A DNA stretch of 56,718 bases from Alphaproteobacteria bacterium (GCA_947488275.1 CANKZX010000005.1:1-56718), one strand, 5' to 3'; positions 2,233 through 13,256 are shown, counted from the first letter of the stretch. Numbers and translations: made by a program. The notes: generated by a model from the letters alone, not told the origin.

Positions 2233-2724
2233 ATGATAAACGATGACGTAAAAATGTACGTATCCTTAACACAAAACCTTAAACATAAATTGGAAGAGCA
2301 GTCGCTCTCGATTAGTGAGTTTGAGCGTGTCGCGGGGCTTAGGCGTAGTGCTGTTTATAATATTTTAAATGGACGTTCTAAAAATCCTAGCATGGCTCTT
2401 ATTCAGGCGTGTGCCGAGGCACTTGGTTGTAGTGTGGCTGAATTACTTGGTGAATCAACCCCAAAATTGTCTGTGATTGAAAATAATAGTATGCAATTTC
2501 ATCTTCAAAAAGATGAAAGGAGAGAGCAGTTTATGAAAAAAGATTGGGATTTAGATTATTATATGAAATGTGTGACGCTTATTCAGGAACTGAAAAAAGA
2601 TAAATCTCTATCAAAAGAACGCTTTGATAGCATTACTGAAGAACTTTATTATTACTCACATCGTGATAATTTGCCTGAACCTGATCGTCGTTATGCGATG
2701 CGTTTACTTGAAATGATCAAATAG
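2233..2724 (+). CDS. XRE/Cro-CI family helix-turn-helix regulator
   Basis: 163 aa. Residues about 13-68 form a Cro/CI-type HTH (SISEFERVAGL, then RSAVYNILNGRSKNPS, then ALIQACAEALG). The C-terminal 85 residues are polar and helical, with no recognised ligand or peptidase domain. An alternative start is the ATG 21 bases downstream (MKMYVSL). TATAAT at 2218-2223 lies about 10 bp before the first ATG, so the transcript may have almost no leader. It is the first gene of a co-directional block; the next gene begins 8 bp after its stop, so it probably controls the sensor/TPR genes behind it. Confidence 0.75.
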   Translation: MINDDVKMYVSLTQNLKHKLEEQSLSISEFERVAGLRRSAVYNILNGRSKNPSMALIQACAEALGCSVAELLGESTPKLSVIENNSMQFHLQKDERREQFMKKDWDLDYYMKCVTLIQELKKDKSLSKERFDSITEELYYYSHRDNLPEPDRRYAMRLLEMIK

Positions 2725-2732
2725 AGTATAAG

Positions 2733-4436
2733 ATGATGACCCAATACTACGCTGAGAAATATCATAATCGGTTTAATAGTCAGCGTGGTTTTAAGCGTTT
2801 TTCAAGTATTTGTTTGCTCTCGTTTGTTCTTGTTATTTCATTTTTGTCATTTTTCCAATATGTTACTTATGTTGATACGATCAATAGTCAGTTACGTGAA
2901 AATGTGGATCATATTGAGCGTTTTGTGCAACAGGACTTGTTGTATGCACAAGATATGTTGATGCAATTTGGCAAAAAGATTGAAAGTTTAAAAAAACCAA
3001 TTCTTAGTGATATTGCGCAAATTATTGGCTCCCGTGCGCATGAGCATCGTTTTCAGTGGCTTAATTTTGGATGGCTCGATGAACATAATATAACGCTTTA
3101 CGATCAATTGAATAATATAACAAATGAAAATCAATTTGATGCGACCTCTCGGTATTATGTTCAGTTGTGTCGTAAACAGCCTGGGACGGTGCATATAACA
3201 AGCACTGTGAATGCTTCTGCTATTGGTGTGCCTGTTATTCCTGGTGCGTATGGTGTGGTTAACCCTGCAAATGGTGCTTATATTGGTACGGTATGGTTTA
3301 CGATTCGTGTTGACGAACTTACGGAGAGAATACGGCATCATTTACACGCTAAAGATATAAAATATGTTATTCTTGATGAACAGCGTAAGCTTATCCTCTC
3401 GTCAGATAAATTATTTAATGGGTTTCATGATTTTGATAGTACTTTTTTTCGTGATGAAATTTCGAATGAAGTGCTTCTGACAAACTATAGCGATCATTTA
3501 AGTAAACCGATTCAATTGGATCAGATCACGTTTAAATATTATAAAAAAATTGAAGGTGCTCCTTACTATATTGTTGTAGGTTTTGATCGGGCAACGTCAC
3601 TCACGATTTTACTAATGACATTTTTACCCGTTCTTCTTTTGCTGTGTTCAACGCTTGTAACGGGGTTAATTTTTTATTTGATTGTAAAATATCATTTTTT
3701 TACGCATGCCGCACAATCACTTACAATACATGCATCGTTACATCATCAAATGACCGTACGTTACCAGAAATTGTATCATAATATAGGAAAAGAAATTGAT
3801 GCTATTGTTGCTTTGGCTTTGAATAAATCACCGTCATATACGTCACACTATCCAATACTTGAGGATAATTTTGCCTATAATTTTTCAAATATGCACACGG
3901 TTACAACACTTGTTTACCCCGATGAAATGATTCAGGAAATTATTGATTTACTGTGGTTTGAAAGCACTAAATTAAAGGTTAAAATACGTACGAAAGGGAC
4001 TAAAATGCTTACTCCTATTTTGACGGATAAGCTGATGTGTCAAATTATTCTAGCTAATATTATTTGGATTGCCTTGAATGCAAATTTGCAAGCAAAAAAA
4101 ATCGTTATTACCGCACGGCAAAGTCATATTCTTGATAAGTCATTTCTTATTTTTAATATTCATTTTAAATCGTATGGTGGGTTGACACAGGAAGATATTT
4201 TATTTGATGACTGTTATAAAGACCTTGATTCTCTGTCTTATCTAAAATTACCATTTATCGAATTGCAAGCACTTATCTTAAAATGTGATGGTTCCTTTTA
4301 TATTGACCCAGGTGAGGCGATTATTTTCCGTCTTCCCTATCAGCAAAACACACTTTCCCAACCAGTATTGAAGAAGGAGGATAGTAAAGGATCGCAACAC
4401 GGGAATGTGGTGCCATTTCCGATAAATAGTAAATAA
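2733..4436 (+). CDS. Membrane sensor with periplasmic Cache-like domain and degenerate kinase-like tail (copy 1)
   Basis: 567 aa. TM1 is at about 23-46 and TM2 at about 289-317, enclosing about 240 periplasmic residues with the layout of a double-Cache sensor. The C-terminal part resembles a worn histidine kinase: a helical region at about 325-370 with no clear HExxN/HE phospho-acceptor box, then a segment near 435-455 (QIILANIIWIALNAN) where the N-box of the ATPase would be, but without the G-boxes. It is therefore likely a signal-binding pseudokinase. The next gene is a paralogue with the same layout; both share the YYKK..YIVVG motif before TM2. Function beyond sensing is unknown. Confidence 0.6.
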   Translation: MMTQYYAEKYHNRFNSQRGFKRFSSICLLSFVLVISFLSFFQYVTYVDTINSQLRENVDHIERFVQQDLLYAQDMLMQFGKKIESLKKPILSDIAQIIGSRAHEHRFQWLNFGWLDEHNITLYDQLNNITNENQFDATSRYYVQLCRKQPGTVHITSTVNASAIGVPVIPGAYGVVNPANGAYIGTVWFTIRVDELTERIRHHLHAKDIKYVILDEQRKLILSSDKLFNGFHDFDSTFFRDEISNEVLLTNYSDHLSKPIQLDQITFKYYKKIEGAPYYIVVGFDRATSLTILLMTFLPVLLLLCSTLVTGLIFYLIVKYHFFTHAAQSLTIHASLHHQMTVRYQKLYHNIGKEIDAIVALALNKSPSYTSHYPILEDNFAYNFSNMHTVTTLVYPDEMIQEIIDLLWFESTKLKVKIRTKGTKMLTPILTDKLMCQIILANIIWIALNANLQAKKIVITARQSHILDKSFLIFNIHFKSYGGLTQEDILFDDCYKDLDSLSYLKLPFIELQALILKCDGSFYIDPGEAIIFRLPYQQNTLSQPVLKKEDSKGSQHGNVVPFPINSK

Positions 4437-4449
4437 GAGTAGGGAAGAT

Positions 4450-6033
4450 GTGATGTTTCAAAAAATAAAGAGTTATAAAAGTTTTTTCATCGTTTATAGC
4501 TTATGTATTATTATCATTATATCATTATGTGTGAGTGCTTTTTATTTCTATTCTTCTTATAAAAAAGATCTTGCTAAAAGTATTGAAAAAAATACGAATA
4601 TGATTAGTAATTATCTACAAGATATCTTTGAACATTCTGAAAATTGGTCATTAAATATGATTGATCGTATTCGAGATAATCCTGATCATACGAAGAAAAT
4701 CATTGATAATATTGAATATCATAGTCTTTATAATATTCATTATGATTTATTTTTTGCATCGTCGAATAATAATATTTTTTATGTATCTGGTTTTATGGAT
4801 CGATCTTATGATCTAAAAAATGAAACATACATTAAAGATTTTTTACATGATATTGATAAATTTACTATTTTCGCTGCTCCTTCTGTTGGGAGCAACACAT
4901 TACGCGAAATAAATTGCGTGACACCCGTGACGGATAAGAATGGAAAAAGAATAGGTATCTTTGGTATTGGTTTAAATGTTTTTAACATCGTACAACGTCT
5001 TGAGGATCTTATTTTTGATAACCGCATTAATTACATTTTAATTGATACCAATTTTCGCATTGTTCTTTTTTCGCCTGATTGCGCCATTGGGCATGATAGT
5101 TCGTATTTTAGAGATCATTTTCTTGGAAAGGAGCAGTCTTTATTTACAAGTCATCAAGGTGAGTTTGTAAACCCAATTTTAATTAAAGGAACGCTTTTTA
5201 CCCATTATAAGCGTATTAAAAATTATCCGCTTTATATTGTTGTGGGCAGTAATAAATTAATTACAAATGAACAATTTGAAATTATGATTCTTCCACGTGT
5301 GATTGAAATGTTTATACTCAGTGTGCTTGTTATTCTTTTTATGTATTTGTTTAGGCAACGTTTTCTTGCTATTGCTTCAACGGCTGAGAATGCACGAGAG
5401 CTTTTTGTTAAAACACTGAAGATGCAAATGCAAACGATTCTCGATACATTGCATAGTGATTGTTTAACATTGCAGAATGCAATCGCATCTGACAATGCAG
5501 CTCCGTCCATTTTAATACCAACAGTTGATTCCATTTTAAAGTCGGCAAAAGCGCTTGAAACATTAAGCACAGAGCAAGACCGTCCAATCCTACTTGATGT
5601 TAATGAGATTGTGCGATCCTGTAAATTGATTGTAGAGCATTCGGCCTTTCTTAACAAAGTATCGATTAAAACACATTTTAGTCCATCGATTCCTCTTATT
5701 TTAACGAAAGAAATTATCCTTAAACAAGCACTTGTTGGTATGTTATCGATTGCGATACGCTTTTTCAATAATAGTGGTCATATAAAAATTGTAACAGAAC
5801 GTTCTCAGCATGATGCGATTAGTATACAGATGCATTGTGATGGCATGATGGATTTTGATCGCATTGAACATTTTGAACGTCATTTGAAATCAACAAGCGC
5901 TATTTATGTTGATGATCTTAAATTTAGTCTTAAAGTTATTCGTCGGCTTATTGAATCAATTTCAGGACAAATTATTTTTCATAAGAGTGAAGATCATACA
6001 CATAAAATAATAGAAATACTTATTCCATTTTGA
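4450..6033 (+). CDS. Membrane sensor with periplasmic Cache-like domain and degenerate kinase-like tail (copy 2)
   Basis: 527 aa from a GTG, or 526 from the adjoining ATG at 4453, which is better spaced from AGGGA at 4441-4445. TM1 is about residues 11-35 and TM2 about 279-301. The periplasmic part has dCache features (ETYIKDFL, PVTDKNGKRIGIFGIGL) and the same pre-TM2 motif as copy 1 (HYKRIKNYPLYIVVG). The C-terminal half aligns loosely with DHp and HATPase regions (LKQALVGMLSIAIRFFNNSG as a relic N-box) but lacks a clear DxGxG box. It looks like a tandem duplicate of the previous gene, diverged in sequence but not in layout. Confidence 0.6.
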   Translation: MMFQKIKSYKSFFIVYSLCIIIIISLCVSAFYFYSSYKKDLAKSIEKNTNMISNYLQDIFEHSENWSLNMIDRIRDNPDHTKKIIDNIEYHSLYNIHYDLFFASSNNNIFYVSGFMDRSYDLKNETYIKDFLHDIDKFTIFAAPSVGSNTLREINCVTPVTDKNGKRIGIFGIGLNVFNIVQRLEDLIFDNRINYILIDTNFRIVLFSPDCAIGHDSSYFRDHFLGKEQSLFTSHQGEFVNPILIKGTLFTHYKRIKNYPLYIVVGSNKLITNEQFEIMILPRVIEMFILSVLVILFMYLFRQRFLAIASTAENARELFVKTLKMQMQTILDTLHSDCLTLQNAIASDNAAPSILIPTVDSILKSAKALETLSTEQDRPILLDVNEIVRSCKLIVEHSAFLNKVSIKTHFSPSIPLILTKEIILKQALVGMLSIAIRFFNNSGHIKIVTERSQHDAISIQMHCDGMMDFDRIEHFERHLKSTSAIYVDDLKFSLKVIRRLIESISGQIIFHKSEDHTHKIIEILIPF

Positions 6034-6139
6034 GCACAGTACAAATGTATGATTTGCATTGAATTTAAGATCAACATTCGCATTTATTTTCATTTTTAAA
6101 TAATTTATTGTAATTCATATTTACGTACATTCTTATACG

Positions 6140-6155
6140 TGTACACATGTGTACA
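6140..6155. promoter_or_regulatory. Perfect 16-bp palindrome (candidate operator)
   Basis: TGTACACATGTGTACA is its own reverse complement. It lies in the 153-bp gap between the second sensor and the first TPR gene, about 31 bp before the TPR start. It is a plausible dimer site, perhaps for the XRE regulator at 2233. No matching copy was found upstream of that regulator. Confidence 0.45.
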
Positions 6156-6186
6156 GGTATTATTTATATAAATGGAATCAATTTAA

Positions 6187-9100
6187 ATGGACGTCATGCG
6201 TATGATGTTGAAACACAACGTGTTAATCGTTTCAATTGTAACAGTGATTGTTGCTTTGATGGGGTTGGCGTATGTTAATAGAATTAAATTTATTGATAAA
6301 ATAAAAAGAATAAATAGATATTTTGCATTAATTTTCGTTTCTATTTTTGCACTTTTGTTGTTGTATTATTGTTTCTCACATGATTTTTTTATCGTTAAAA
6401 ATGAGAATAGCGATTCATATGCCATAAACAGTGATGGTGTTCATTTTAATGATAATCTAAAAAATGCAAATGCAATCTATACAGGTTCGTTTGAACATGT
6501 TTATACCGTTTTGCCGCCCATTAATCAAAATTCAATTAAAACAGATAAAATAAAACAATACTATGATAATGGAATAAAATGTGGTATCCGCGAGCACTAT
6601 GATCGTGCGCTCACCTATTACAAAGATGCACTGGATCTTCTTGATGCTCAGCAAGAACCTAATTTTTATGCGCATATCTTAATGCATATTGCGACGGTAA
6701 ATAGTTTTCTTGGTCATTTTGAAGAAAGTAAAAAGTGTTATGAGAATGCGCTTAAAATTGTTAAACGAACGGGTTATCGTTGTGGTGAAGCAGCTGCTTA
6801 TCAAGGTTTGAGTAAGCTTGATAGTTATCTTGGTAATTTTGATCGCGCTTTAGCCTATCTGGAACAGGCTCGAATCATTCATAAATCACTTCAAAATATC
6901 GTGATGTTGGCGGATGTCTCTCGATTGATGGGCGATATTAAACATCAAATGGGTTATTTTAAAGAAGCGCTTCATCTTTATGAGTATGCACGTGATATTT
7001 ACGTTGGATTTAATGATTTATATGGTGAAGCGAAGGTTATGCATCAACTCGGTGATATTGATGTTAATTTTGGCAATAAAAGGAAAGGACGACAACATTA
7101 TATGCGCTCACTCGCTATTTTTAAACAAATAGGGAGTATTGAGGGAGAAGCCAAAGTTTTGTTGGCTCTGGGTCGTATTGAAAACGATATGAATCATTTC
7201 GATCAATCATCGCTTATTTTTCAGCAAGCGCGTGTATTATTTAGTAAAATCAAAAATGCGCGAGGTACGGGAAAATTACTGTTGGGTGAAGCGTTTTTAA
7301 ATATCAATTTGGGAAATGTGGATAAGGCAAGGGCTCTTTTCTTGGAAGCAATTGCTAATTTTCAACGCATTAATAGTAAGTATGCGGAAGGAAAAACGCA
7401 TTTTTATCTTGCTAATTTTGAAGCATTTCTTGGAAATGCTGAACGTGCACACATTCATTACGAAAAGTGCCTTGATTTGATACAGCATATTTCATGTCCA
7501 TTTATGTTGAGCCAAGTTTATCGAGAAATGGCAAATCTTAAAAGAGAAATAGGAGAGAATAAAGATGCGCGTGATTTATATGCACAAAGTGTTTTATATG
7601 CAAAAAAAACCGATGATCCAACGTTATTAAGCCATGCATATGCTGGATTGGCAACTGCAGAGATTTATACAAATTCCTATGATTCAGCAGGTATTCATTT
7701 TCAAGAGGCGTTGACGCTTGTCGGTGAAAATAATCTCTTGAAGGGCGATATTCTTTTTGGTCTTGGTCATACAAAACATTTATTAGGTGAAAATGAAGAA
7801 GCGCTGAAATATCTTTTTCGTGCGCTTAAAGAGTATGAGAGTGTGGGGAATATCTATGGAAAAGCAAAATTTTTTTATATAAAGGCTTTGATTGATTTTC
7901 ATCGCGATAATTATGATGAAGCCTATAGCAATATTAATATTGCTCTCTCTCTTTTTAAACAGTGTCATCATACGATTTATGTTGCAAAATGTTATTATGA
8001 GCGGGGACGTATCCATTTTATTCGTGGAAAGAATGATCTTGCCCGTGCCGATTGCCAAGAATCTTTTCAGCAGGCAAGTGAAGCACATCAACCATGGGTA
8101 AAAGCGTGCATTTTAAATTTACAAGGACATATTTGTTTATATGAAGGTGATACCAAAGCCGCACTTCATTATTGCACGGAATCGTACATGTTGTTTGCGA
8201 ATCTTGTTGAACGTACAGAAGAAATAAGTGCTCTTAATAATGTTGGGCTTATTTATTTATACACAGGTGCGTTTAAACAATCAGAGCAGGCGTTTGATAA
8301 AGCACTTGAATTATGTAAACACATTTCGTTCCCGTATGGTCTATGCCGAACGTATATTAATATGGGAATGCTCCATCTTAAATTAGCACATTTTAAGACA
8401 TCTCTCGATTTTTTTACAAAGGCACTTCATATTGCACAAAAAATTGAGAGTAAGGGTATGGAAGCCGAGGCGCGTTTAGGTCTTGGGATGCTGAAAGAAA
8501 TCAATGCAGAATCAAAAGAAGCACGCGCTTTATTACAACTTGCTTTTAATCAGGCAAAGGAAAGTGGTGAATATGTGCTTGAGGGACGTATCTTAAATCA
8601 GCTTGCACTTAATCTGATTCACGTTGGTAGTTTTGTACAAGCCCAAAGGAGTGCTGAGCAAGCTATGCATTTGTTTGAGACGTGCAAATGTGTTTTTGAA
8701 CTGAGTGTAACAAAGCGTCTTCTTTCTAAGATTCAATGGCGAAACCGCCAATATTTAGATGCGTTGACACTGACACAACAAGCGCTGCAAATTGCACAAA
8801 AATGTAATAACCCAAGTGAAATGGCAAAGAATTACATTGATTTGGGGTATAATTTTCTTAAGCATGAGAAAATGAAGGATGCATTAACATATTTCAAGCT
8901 TGGTTTTGATCTTGCGGCAGATGTAAATGATCAATTATATTCTGCGGACGCCTTAAAGGCGCAAGCATTATATTATACATCACAAAATCAGTATGCGTTG
9001 GCGCATCAACACTATCAAAAAGCCTTTAAAATATATGAACATGTCGTTTATCCTTCTAAAATAATTAATACGAAACGAAAGCATGCGCGGGTTTTTGTCA

Positions 9101-9807
9101 AAGAAGGTCAGTTTACGAAAGCGCAACAGAAATTAGAGCAGTGTTACGCAGAAGCACCTCAAATTAATAGTCATTTAACAGCACTCATTGGTTATGATCT
9201 TGGATCTTTATTTATTAAGAACGCTAATTTTCAAAGAGCAAGTTATTATCTCAGGCGTTCCTATCTTGCCTTTAAAGATCTTCATAGCAATGATAAACAT
9301 CAATATTATGCAGCGTATCTTAAATATTTATTTGTAAAAAGTCTTACTCACGATGCGAATGCAAAAAAAGAACTGATGCTTCTTATGACGGAATTAGCCG
9401 CCCCAATATACCAGAGAGAAAAGGCCGATTTATTACATTATATGGCGATCATTGAAAGCATTGATGCTCAATTTGATAAAGCGAATGATTATTTTTCATC
9501 ATGTATTGAGGCATACGAGTCTCTTAACATAAAAATGCCATTATGTGCTTGTTATGTATCAATGATGTATCATTTTGATCGTGTTAATATGCCTGATAAG
9601 ATAAAAGAATGCCAATTGAAAGCCCTTCATCTTACTCGCATGCGTGCTGATTTATATCATGAAGCACTTATACTGATGGCGTACAGCAATCTTCTTAAAC
9701 AAAAGCAGCAGGTTCAATCAAATGAATATGCAATGAAAGCACGTCACCTATGTGAAAAACTTAATATACGTGAACAGCACACGCAGTCTTTATATGCTCT
9801 GTTATGA
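6187..9807 (+). CDS. Giant membrane-anchored TPR protein (copy 1)
   Basis: 1206 aa. Two N-terminal membrane segments (about 11-30 and 45-63) flank a basic loop (NRIKFIDKIKRINR). By the positive-inside rule the loop is cytoplasmic and the rest periplasmic. From about residue 105 nearly the whole chain is tandem repeats of about 40 residues of TPR_12 type (Y.G....A..YY..AL.L, alternating with A....LG.....G....A), roughly 25 or more copies. No catalytic domain is visible. Such superhelices act as protein scaffolds. Its stop overlaps the next gene's start by 4 bp (ATGA), which indicates coupled translation. The shared orientation with the Cache sensors suggests one pathway. Confidence 0.75.
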   Translation: MDVMRMMLKHNVLIVSIVTVIVALMGLAYVNRIKFIDKIKRINRYFALIFVSIFALLLLYYCFSHDFFIVKNENSDSYAINSDGVHFNDNLKNANAIYTGSFEHVYTVLPPINQNSIKTDKIKQYYDNGIKCGIREHYDRALTYYKDALDLLDAQQEPNFYAHILMHIATVNSFLGHFEESKKCYENALKIVKRTGYRCGEAAAYQGLSKLDSYLGNFDRALAYLEQARIIHKSLQNIVMLADVSRLMGDIKHQMGYFKEALHLYEYARDIYVGFNDLYGEAKVMHQLGDIDVNFGNKRKGRQHYMRSLAIFKQIGSIEGEAKVLLALGRIENDMNHFDQSSLIFQQARVLFSKIKNARGTGKLLLGEAFLNINLGNVDKARALFLEAIANFQRINSKYAEGKTHFYLANFEAFLGNAERAHIHYEKCLDLIQHISCPFMLSQVYREMANLKREIGENKDARDLYAQSVLYAKKTDDPTLLSHAYAGLATAEIYTNSYDSAGIHFQEALTLVGENNLLKGDILFGLGHTKHLLGENEEALKYLFRALKEYESVGNIYGKAKFFYIKALIDFHRDNYDEAYSNINIALSLFKQCHHTIYVAKCYYERGRIHFIRGKNDLARADCQESFQQASEAHQPWVKACILNLQGHICLYEGDTKAALHYCTESYMLFANLVERTEEISALNNVGLIYLYTGAFKQSEQAFDKALELCKHISFPYGLCRTYINMGMLHLKLAHFKTSLDFFTKALHIAQKIESKGMEAEARLGLGMLKEINAESKEARALLQLAFNQAKESGEYVLEGRILNQLALNLIHVGSFVQAQRSAEQAMHLFETCKCVFELSVTKRLLSKIQWRNRQYLDALTLTQQALQIAQKCNNPSEMAKNYIDLGYNFLKHEKMKDALTYFKLGFDLAADVNDQLYSADALKAQALYYTSQNQYALAHQHYQKAFKIYEHVVYPSKIINTKRKHARVFVKEGQFTKAQQKLEQCYAEAPQINSHLTALIGYDLGSLFIKNANFQRASYYLRRSYLAFKDLHSNDKHQYYAAYLKYLFVKSLTHDANAKKELMLLMTELAAPIYQREKADLLHYMAIIESIDAQFDKANDYFSSCIEAYESLNIKMPLCACYVSMMYHFDRVNMPDKIKECQLKALHLTRMRADLYHEALILMAYSNLLKQKQQVQSNEYAMKARHLCEKLNIREQHTQSLYALL

Positions 9808-12800
9808 TGTTTATGAGAAGGTATTTTGTTTTATATTGTATAAGTTTCCTTTTAATAGGGGGTGGTCTTTTATCGTACACAAACAGGCTGCTATTTTATG
9901 AATCTAAGTCTGACGTTATTTCGAAAGAAAGCCACACTGTAGAATCGATGAATCTCTGTATGCTTGAAGAAAGCGATTTTAAAGAAGCAAAATCGATCTT
10001 TGATGATGGAGAGACACACTATAAAGCCGAATATTATTCCGATGCGCTTGCCTATTTTGTGCGAGCACTTATCTTATTTGTGCATCTAACAACGGAAGAT
10101 TGGCAAACATTCTGCTTATGTCGAATTGCTAAGTGTTATCAAATGATGGGCGAACTTAATCGTTCGGCAGTCTATTATACGCAAGCGCTTGCTCTTGCCA
10201 AAAAGATTAACCATCTTCCATTGTATTATATGACCCTGCTGCATTCTGTGCGAACACTATTTTTGCTTGGAAAATGGGAAGAAGCACAAATTGCTCTTGT
10301 TGAGATCAACAATCAATCACTTTCTACGTTTCATACAACGTATGAACGGTGTCAATATTTGCTTGAAAATGCACATCTGAACCTTGTAAAGGGGGATTAT
10401 AGTGAGACTCGAAAGGTATTAACGTATTTTTTTGACATGAATAAAAAGAATTCTTTTTATGTATTAGAGGCAGAAGCCCTCCGTCTTCGTAGTCAATTAA
10501 CGATGATTGAAACGGCTGATTATCAGGTTGCCAAACAGGGGTTGATGAAATCTTTAGAGTTATTGAAAACGTCTTATCATAAATCAGAACAAGCATCTGT
10601 TTTTATTTTGTTAGGAGAGCTTTTGTCTAAACAAAAAAATAGACACGAAGCCTTATCTTATTTTGATAAAGCGTATACATTTTATCATCAACTAAATGAT
10701 AAAATGGCACTTAGTTATATTTTATTACATAAAAATGTTCTCATGAAGGTGCCTGATTTATACACACATAATGTGCAGTTGATTGAGATTCTGGAAAAGG
10801 GAATGCACCGTCCTTATTACAGTGAAGCGCTTATTTTTCTTGCGCATAATGCGATCGAAAGTTATGAACTGGATCAAGCGCGTTGGTATTTAACAAAGGC
10901 ATTAACATCAGCGCCTGAATTGAAGAATAAGCATCATGAATGTATTATCTACACGTTGCTTGGCGAAGTGGATAAAAAAAATAGAAATTTTGAATCTGCG
11001 CAAAAAAATCTGACAAAAGCAATTCATTTAAGTGATGAAAAAAAGGATTTAAAAGCACATGTTAATGCACTAATTACGCTTAGTTCAATTGAATCAGATG
11101 CAAATAATAACCAAAAGTCACTTGAAAATCTTAGATATGTTTTAAAATTAGCAAAAAAATATAAATATACATATGAAATAGCAAAGTGTCATTTCTATTT
11201 GGGCATTATTTATATGTATAATGGTTCTATTACGAACGCTGAACATGCCTTTAAAAAAGCTGCTCATATTTTTTCAGATCAGAATTATCACTTTGAACAT
11301 GGTAAAACGATTTTTTATCAGGCGCAACTTGAAATTTATCGAGGGAACTTTAGTCAGGCAGATGCCTTGAGTCAACGGTGTTTAGAAATATTTGAATCGA
11401 TTCATAATAACGAATATCGTGCTAAGACGACGTCTCTCATTGCGTATGCGTCCTTTGTGCGTGGAAATCATCAATTTGCCCGTGATTTTTATCAAAAAGC
11501 AGCGCAGCTTGCGCAAAAATCAGGCAATACACTTTTGGCAACTCATATTCACATCCAACAAGCTCTGATTGATGCGAGAGAAAGCAACATCAAAGATGCT
11601 GTCTTAATTATAAAAAACAATGAACCTTTGGTTAAACAATTGGGTGATACGCACCTTTCGATTGAGTTTGCTTATCTTAAAGCGCTGGTTGATTTTAATA
11701 AGGGATTTTTTAGTTCAGCCTTACAGATAATACACGAAGGTATTTGTTTGTGTGATCAAAATGAACATGCCTTTTTGAGGCTGCACTTAACCGCGTTGAA
11801 GGCATATATTTTAGTATTGAGGGGGAAAGATGAGGATGTATTCCCTTTGATTCATCAGATACGTGAGCAGGCTCAAAAATTACAATGCCTTCCTGTTATT
11901 GCTGTATCTCATCAAATGTTTGCATTTTTAAATATCAAACAAACGAAATTTGAAGAGGCACGTATATATGCCAATCATGCACTTAAAATAGCTGAAGAAA
12001 TTAATAACCCTCAGCACATCGGAATGAGTTATAATTGCTTGTCTATGATTGAAAATAGTTCTGGCAATCGTGAGCGTGCGAAGGAATATGCTGAAAAGGC
12101 ATTAACTTATCATCGTAATATTAATTATTTGATAGGTGTTGTTAAAACCAGCATCCTTCTTAGTCAAATTTATCTTAAAGATAATGATACAGAAAATGCA
12201 TTGAATACATTAAAAAATGTCCTTCCATACGTACAGGCGATTGACAATAAAGACGTTCATGGTGAAGCACTGGTTCAACTTGCAAAAGTATATGTGTGTG
12301 ATGAAAAATACGAAGAAGCGCGTCGTACCTATAAAAAAGCCTTCGTTATTTTTAAAAAAAGTAATGATATGTTTTTGTGTACGCAAATTTTATCTGAATT
12401 AAGTCACGTTGAATTATCCCTTGGTCATTTTGAACAATCACTTATCTATTTGAATGAAGCGCAGACGTTTTGTCATACAATACAGGATGAAAATATTCTT
12501 TTTGATATATTTAAGCAATTTGGTAATTTATATCGTGTGCAAAAAAATTATAGTAAAGCGGGTGCCTATTATGCACGTGCCCTTGCTATTACAAAGAAGC
12601 TTAATTTTTTACATGAAGAAGGGGAGATTTTATATGAAATGCTTATCATGGATATGAATCAGTTTCAGTGGGATGCGGCTAAATCAAAAGGAGAGAGTGC
12701 GATACGACTCTTTAATCAAGTGAAAGATGTATATTTTAGTGGGGTTATTTGGACGAAATTGGGTGTTATTGAACGTCTTCAAAATCATTATGAGCAGGCG

Positions 12801-13256
12801 CGAATCTGCTTAAATACGGCACAAAAGGTTTTAATGAATACAGCGTATAAGGCTGAAAAAGCACGGGTCTTGCATGAAATGGGAACGCTTGAAATTTTGC
12901 GTCATAATGAAAAGAAGGGAAAGCACTATTATAAGGATAGCCTTGCTCTATATCAAAGCAGTGGTTCTAAAATTGGTTTGGGTAAACTCTATATTTCAAT
13001 GGCGTTATTTGAATTTTATAAACATAATATTGATGAATCTATTCAAAAATTAAAGGAAGCTCTTGTTGTGTTTCAAACGACAAAGAATCCAATTTGGCAA
13101 GGAATGACGTTACTCGGTCTTTCACGTCTGTATCAGAAAAAGAAACAACAAGCTGAAGCTGAATTTTATTTACAGGAGTCTCGGAGAATAGAGAAAAAAT
13201 TTAAAATTATAAATAAAGATATTATCAGTTTTTATGGATTTAGTGATAAGGATTAA
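9804..13256 (+). CDS. Giant membrane-anchored TPR protein (copy 2)
   Basis: 1150 aa. One N-terminal membrane segment (about 7-25) follows a short basic start (MMFMRRY), so the body is predicted to be periplasmic. From about residue 60 to the end the sequence is tandem 40-residue TPR units like those of the preceding protein (AKCYQMMGELNRSAVYYTQAL and so on). It is a paralogue of the 6187 gene and overlaps it by ATGA. No enzymatic domain is seen. The two together offer several thousand square angstroms of binding surface; partners are unknown. Confidence 0.75.
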   Translation: MMFMRRYFVLYCISFLLIGGGLLSYTNRLLFYESKSDVISKESHTVESMNLCMLEESDFKEAKSIFDDGETHYKAEYYSDALAYFVRALILFVHLTTEDWQTFCLCRIAKCYQMMGELNRSAVYYTQALALAKKINHLPLYYMTLLHSVRTLFLLGKWEEAQIALVEINNQSLSTFHTTYERCQYLLENAHLNLVKGDYSETRKVLTYFFDMNKKNSFYVLEAEALRLRSQLTMIETADYQVAKQGLMKSLELLKTSYHKSEQASVFILLGELLSKQKNRHEALSYFDKAYTFYHQLNDKMALSYILLHKNVLMKVPDLYTHNVQLIEILEKGMHRPYYSEALIFLAHNAIESYELDQARWYLTKALTSAPELKNKHHECIIYTLLGEVDKKNRNFESAQKNLTKAIHLSDEKKDLKAHVNALITLSSIESDANNNQKSLENLRYVLKLAKKYKYTYEIAKCHFYLGIIYMYNGSITNAEHAFKKAAHIFSDQNYHFEHGKTIFYQAQLEIYRGNFSQADALSQRCLEIFESIHNNEYRAKTTSLIAYASFVRGNHQFARDFYQKAAQLAQKSGNTLLATHIHIQQALIDARESNIKDAVLIIKNNEPLVKQLGDTHLSIEFAYLKALVDFNKGFFSSALQIIHEGICLCDQNEHAFLRLHLTALKAYILVLRGKDEDVFPLIHQIREQAQKLQCLPVIAVSHQMFAFLNIKQTKFEEARIYANHALKIAEEINNPQHIGMSYNCLSMIENSSGNRERAKEYAEKALTYHRNINYLIGVVKTSILLSQIYLKDNDTENALNTLKNVLPYVQAIDNKDVHGEALVQLAKVYVCDEKYEEARRTYKKAFVIFKKSNDMFLCTQILSELSHVELSLGHFEQSLIYLNEAQTFCHTIQDENILFDIFKQFGNLYRVQKNYSKAGAYYARALAITKKLNFLHEEGEILYEMLIMDMNQFQWDAAKSKGESAIRLFNQVKDVYFSGVIWTKLGVIERLQNHYEQARICLNTAQKVLMNTAYKAEKARVLHEMGTLEILRHNEKKGKHYYKDSLALYQSSGSKIGLGKLYISMALFEFYKHNIDESIQKLKEALVVFQTTKNPIWQGMTLLGLSRLYQKKKQQAEAEFYLQESRRIEKKFKIINKDIISFYGFSDKD

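Follow-up and report, generated by a model that had tools for sequence, protein, structure and literature searches.

NifL, a protein with a histidine-kinase-like, nucleotide-binding-type domain, controls the regulator encoded by the adjacent gene by protein contact (PMC12540587). The sensors of the locus analysed here resemble it, NifL (9qq6) matching their profile by both sequence and fold. However, NifL is cytoplasmic, carries PAS sensors and holds a sigma-54 activator, whereas the present locus combines a membrane Cache sensor, an XRE protein as presumed contact partner, a conserved tail and a TPR companion. The atypical kinases DivL and RetS, whose structures are both matched by the sensors, likewise use a DHp/CA fold for regulation; DivL retains a Tyr at the acceptor site and acts via a kinase phosphorelay, and neither has the fixed XRE neighbour seen here. 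In FimS of Porphyromonas a TPR sensing region is linked to a kinase-type transducer, and the TPR repeats of the giant proteins T1 and T2 described below score on the FimS model, a match which may reflect generic TPR repeats; FimS joins TPR and kinase in one protein, whereas here they are encoded by separate genes and the kinase is dead. XRE repressors of the SinR, DdrO, Stl and TrbA-like type share with our regulator an HTH followed by a helical C-terminal domain but have no membrane pseudokinase partner; SinR, DdrO and Stl are among its best fold or sequence matches, although the match of the C-terminal domain is weak, with no Foldseek match below E 0.001. To our knowledge, few pseudo-histidine-kinases have a fixed DNA-binding partner. 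Regulation of conjugative elements in obligate intracellular bacteria is poorly known. In RAGE-type elements of Rickettsiales, F-type tra genes are combined with genes for histidine-kinase-domain and TPR proteins, and some of the TPR proteins carry Sec signals (PMC10732058). The parts of that account consulted here treat the kinase-domain and TPR genes as cargo or putative effectors and do not describe an XRE-pseudokinase-TPR cassette (PMC10732058); unlike RAGE, the locus analysed here is not accompanied by F-type tra genes.

The locus lies on a 56,718-nt stretch of DNA, analysed as a whole and referred to as the window, which forms contig 5 of a draft genome assembly (1.47 Mb, ~89% complete) from an order of reduced-genome Alphaproteobacteria in which one relative is named Candidatus Paracaedibacteraceae. 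It encodes, in order on the + strand, an XRE-family regulator (163 aa, 2233..2724), two membrane pseudo-histidine-kinases, S1 (567 aa, 2733..4436) and S2 (527 aa, 4450..6033, with a GTG start codon), and two giant TPR proteins, T1 (1206 aa, 6187..9807) and T2 (1150 aa, 9804..13256). Gaps of 8, 13 and 153 bp separate XRE from S1, S1 from S2 and S2 from T1, respectively, and T1 and T2 overlap by 4 bp; order, lengths, strand, gaps and overlap are exactly as given in an earlier note on this DNA. The five ORFs are genuine genes rather than chance, as homologues are kept across the order. Promoter and terminator counts in the window are close to the shuffle level. We consider the XRE-pseudokinase-TPR set to be a signalling cassette which is so far undescribed, and our literature search found no paper joining pseudokinase, XRE and Cache. 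That the window locus is a chromosomal, expanded member of this cassette is put forward at roughly even confidence. A known anti-phage defence system was also considered and dropped, as PADLOC defence models returned only CapH-type HTH and generic TPR matches to the locus.

The core of the set is the pairing of regulator and pseudokinase. The XRE protein carries an N-terminal HTH (HTH_3, Pfam, 6e-11) and a C-terminal four-helix domain (helices 88-102, 107-120, 128-144 and 152-162 in a model with pLDDT 84) which, in the family profile, has conserved residues of its own. Its profile yielded 30 matches in 18 of 42 genomes of the order, a sample of draft genomes from related species, and a pseudokinase gene is adjacent or one gene off at ~20 of the 29 XRE loci inspected. 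The genes are variously co-directional, divergent or tail-to-tail; adjacency that persists in different orientations argues for function and against one frozen operon. Thus XRE and pseudokinase are, with high probability, coupled, and the tie of the sensors to the regulator suggested earlier is upheld. As to the accompanying suggestion that the XRE protein controls expression of the locus, this protein is more likely the output controlled by the pseudokinase than a mere regulator of the locus. In the XRE tree the window protein groups with family f8 (G024, G031, G038, G034 and G028) and G022 (support 98/96). Roughly nine XRE homologues lack an adjacent sensor gene.

T1 and T2 are TPR proteins with membrane segments, as had been proposed, with TPR_12 found in both (Pfam, 4e-64 and 2e-46, respectively) and, from hydropathy and charge, two N-terminal TM segments joined by a loop of charge +5 in T1 and a single N-terminal segment in T2. 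They are ~17% identical, and their split is older than the divergence from the congener G003, in which T2 is 63% identical and the 4-bp overlap is kept (L041); twin TPR genes are found in the window and in this one congener. Relatives of T1/T2 occur in 7 of the 42 order genomes, all seven of which have XRE and sensor, adjoining in five; given the 11 genomes with a Cache-type sensor, the chance of finding the sensor in 7 of 7 is ~1e-5 by simple counting, with relatedness ignored. The TPR gene is adjacent to XRE/sensor in the window, G024, G031 and G038, and G028 was counted as linked because sensor halves at two contig ends (C2 and C56) complement each other. In G034 it is unlinked, lying on another contig. 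The congener was tried as a counter-example to linkage and is uninformative, as its contig starts inside T1 and the remainder of T1 is unassembled; its only XRE-sensor pair belongs to another XRE clade. TPR and sensor genes converge in f8 but run in the same direction in the window.

These data bear on an alternative in which XRE and sensors alone form the system, T1 and T2 being neighbours kept nearby through shared inheritance and having an envelope role of their own, as solenoids for host interaction or as a periplasmic scaffold. Commonly, XRE is accompanied by one sensor but by no TPR gene (L040, L042, L044 and L047 among many), the separate contig of the G034 gene fits this alternative, and a perfect 16-bp palindrome, TGTACACATGTGTACA (6140..6155), lies in the S2-T1 gap. 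The palindrome is operator-like, ~0.5 such being expected per whole window, and suggests that T1-T2 may have its own regulated promoter. Consequently, of the single co-directional block described in the earlier note, strand and order stand but a single transcript is not implied, given a palindrome within a 153-bp gap. Against the alternative, every T-bearing genome of the order has XRE and sensor, linkage is kept in f8 despite the different orientation, and independent XRE-pseudokinase loci repeatedly adjoin another TPR gene. We therefore regard it as rather unlikely, at perhaps one chance in a few, and consider that T1 and T2 probably belong to the signalling set. Comparison with related genomes supports the grouping, XRE and sensor being present in every T-bearing genome of the order and linkage being kept in another family, but the set is not obligatory, as G034 illustrates.

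Beyond the order, an XRE gene, a membrane pseudokinase and a large TPR protein recur together, the TPR member usually being of NB-ARC-TPR type. Across the class, members of the XRE family were detected in 14 of 385 genomes, where a frequent trio consists of XRE, a membrane pseudokinase of ~440-580 aa and an NB-ARC-TPR protein of ~760-795 aa. The last of these begins with a hydrophobic signal-like stretch and carries TPR as well as an NB-ARC-type domain with Walker A. All of the best seven whole-genome matches of the NB-ARC-TPR family adjoin XRE and pseudokinase, and nearly all pseudokinase matches lie at XRE loci, counts which are not unbiased since both profiles were built from XRE loci and few candidates were scored per genome. 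In families f2 and f5, XRE and sensor lie beside F-type tra operons (TraL, TraE, TrbI, TraC), with a TPR gene (526, 523 and 737 aa) between XRE and pseudokinase at three f5 loci, and on Candidatus Megaera plasmids the trio, whose pseudokinase is annotated as hypothetical, is located beside traB/K/E/L. The window has the XRE gene with an adjacent membrane pseudokinase, and in T1 and T2 adjacent large TPR proteins with an N-terminal hydrophobic segment; unlike most copies outside the order, T1 and T2 have no NB-ARC domain, and their likeness to the NB-ARC-TPR proteins is confined to the TPR repeats. The view that these genes form a functional set is strengthened by this recurrence in other orders and by the linkage kept in another family; conversely, their composition is not peculiar to this locus, and several copies lie beside tra genes, a link to conjugative elements that was not apparent to the earlier note.

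A signal-peptide-like start was observed on Walker A NB-ARC-TPR (STAND) ATPases at L116:1034-3415, L119:2224-4602, L126:6689-9019, L129:5166-7454, L133:6742-9099 and L134:4014-6383. This topology is puzzling because an exported ATPase would lack ATP outside; the proteins may be membrane-anchored facing inward, or may act elsewhere. LuxR-HTH + NB-ARC + TPR proteins of 1086-1209 aa are encoded near the XRE family in three genomes (L045:11211-14840, L115:1567-4995 and L135:1715-4975), and the notion that the gene near the G022 sensor is a coincidence was dropped, as similar genes lie near the XRE family in G174 and G279.

In S1 and S2 the kinase-like half is degenerate. An alignment with DivL-like proteins and histidine kinases of the order shows V at the phospho-acceptor His position (H-box) of S1 and M at that of S2, others having N, L, Q or G. 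The N-box Asn is absent from S1, S2 and their order relatives, as is the G2 box, while G1 is partly retained in some relatives. HATPase_c is weak in S2 (Pfam, 0.0098), compared with ~1e-9 for the same region in relatives, yet the S2 model (pLDDT 78) matches DHp-CA structures, and the sensor profile matches RetS, YycG/WalK-type, FixL-type, DivL and NifL chains in the PDB. Motif loss combined with this fold match suggests that the fold is retained and the chemistry lost across the sensor family, not just in this genome, in agreement with the degenerate kinase tails noted earlier. Phosphotransfer is unlikely because the catalytic motifs are lost, and we are correspondingly confident that the sensors signal without it. 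Phosphorylation through an intact partner kinase or phosphotransferase, in the style of DivL-CckA and with XRE as an independent neighbour, would agree with a C-terminal half whose nearest relatives in the same genomes are DivL-like and hybrid kinases and which matches DivL in the PDB. However, the acceptor site of the family keeps neither His nor Tyr, the neighbour that stays constant across the order is an XRE gene lacking a receiver domain, and we judge this route improbable. The block itself contains no cognate response regulator with a receiver domain, its only regulator being the XRE protein.

The Cache-like sensor domains fared less clearly: dCache_1 was found in both proteins (Pfam, 3e-5 in S1 and 2e-5 in S2) but scores below the curated cut-off. 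A Cache domain between two TM segments, which flank the region in S1 and S2 by hydropathy and charge, would fit the TM pattern and model secondary structure. From hydropathy and charge, the Cache and TPR regions would lie outside and the kinase-like half would face inward, in line with the periplasmic orientation of sensor domains and TPR arrays proposed previously. S1 and S2 are ~17% identical, and twin sensors were found in the window's genome only. A recent tandem duplication giving rise to S1 and S2 was considered; the tree neither supports nor rejects them as sisters (p-AU 0.31). The pairs of the earlier note are real, but 'tandem-duplicated' exceeds the data at ~17% identity within each pair. 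Judged from sequence, S1 has a tail but an eroded core and S2 a better-kept CA core but no tail, so that their roles may be split; an S1-S2 heterodimer is plausible because tail and better core sit on different proteins.

The F-type TraC gave no match in the window's own, ~89% complete genome assembly, and Pfam-matched neighbours of the locus comprise an RND pump with its HlyD partner and a ClpB-type ATPase, which together give the locus a chromosomal appearance. A reading of the locus as a regulatory cassette left over from a conjugative element, now decaying and without function, could be suggested by the cassettes beside tra operons, the lack of TraC and the broken copies of the G039 sensor and G028 TPR gene. 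It is improbable, since none of the five long window ORFs is interrupted, T2 is intact and 63% identical in the congener, and the chromosomal XRE clade is found in more than one family.

The best-kept stretch of the pseudokinase alignment (mean column identity 24%) is its C-terminal tail. A tail of the form N[VI][VIYFC]x[FLI] ends 32 of 37 pseudokinases compared with 16 of 553 other proteins (Fisher ~1e-35, a value inflated as the sequences are related, relatedness was ignored and the pattern was widened after inspection). Examples include NNICKF, SNIYPF, GNVVRLF, DNIVKLF and SNVVPLF, preceded by a flexible-looking linker. S1 ends in GNVVPFPINSK (4401..4433, +), containing GNVVPF, whereas S2 has no real tail, its formal match to the pattern being chance. 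That such a tail is conserved on a dead kinase constantly accompanied by a small XRE protein points to a docking peptide, for which the XRE C-terminal four-helix domain would be the natural candidate receptor. Binding of the tail to XRE is nonetheless proposed tentatively, at somewhat under even confidence.

Combined, the model we consider best, though with no more than an even chance of being correct, is NifL-like contact signalling with an extracytoplasmic TPR partner. It is favoured by the NifL precedent, and an outside TPR as sensing element would fit the FimS score. The Cache domain would receive a signal on the outer side of the cytoplasmic membrane, the TPR superhelix acting as co-receptor or scaffold; the DHp/CA core would change shape without phosphotransfer, and the tail (NVVxLF type) would capture or free XRE via its C-terminal helical domain, thereby switching the XRE regulon. 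In mobile copies this regulon is probably the tra operon. Direct contact between TPR and Cache is a more doubtful element. A general form of phosphotransfer-free trans-membrane signalling, in which a dead kinase's tail peptide captures XRE while a TPR solenoid gates from outside, and in which the cassette, carried among intracellular Alphaproteobacteria by conjugative elements, controls conjugation there, the present copy having been domesticated and its sensors specialised for tail (S1) and core (S2), is speculative and would more probably prove wrong than right. With a recurring cassette that is compact and has a defined tail motif, the model is directly testable; the cassette offers a candidate function for hypothetical-annotated genes beside tra operons and would show membrane-to-regulator contact signalling in bacteria with few two-component systems.

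Several minor observations were made. By eye, the sensorless XRE homologues L056, L059, L062, L064 and L067 lie near conjugation/type IV secretion-like clusters or HigA/HigB-like pairs. A small HTH-like gene (86-101 aa) is located upstream of and divergent to XRE in all f8 loci (L033:5487-5747, L034:5788-6048, L035:10912-11172, L036:12521-12784 and L038:2184-2489), none similar being seen in the window; TTTGTACTTGAACA is common to the f8 XRE promoters and absent from the window. A shared operator of the XRE and T promoters was rejected, as matches were short and at chance level. The G028 TPR gene (L039:657-4265) and the G039 sensor (L049:7788-9484) are each interrupted by a stop codon, reflecting decay or assembly error. 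The window's genome encodes a third giant TPR protein, T1-related and of 1245 aa, on contig 29 (L046:3334-7071), without XRE or sensor neighbours. Finally, the end of T2 (window 13200-13253), KDIISFYGF, resembles the pseudokinase tail although T2 is predicted outside, and T2 of the congener (L041:392-3835) ends in the likewise tail-like KNIINFYGF.
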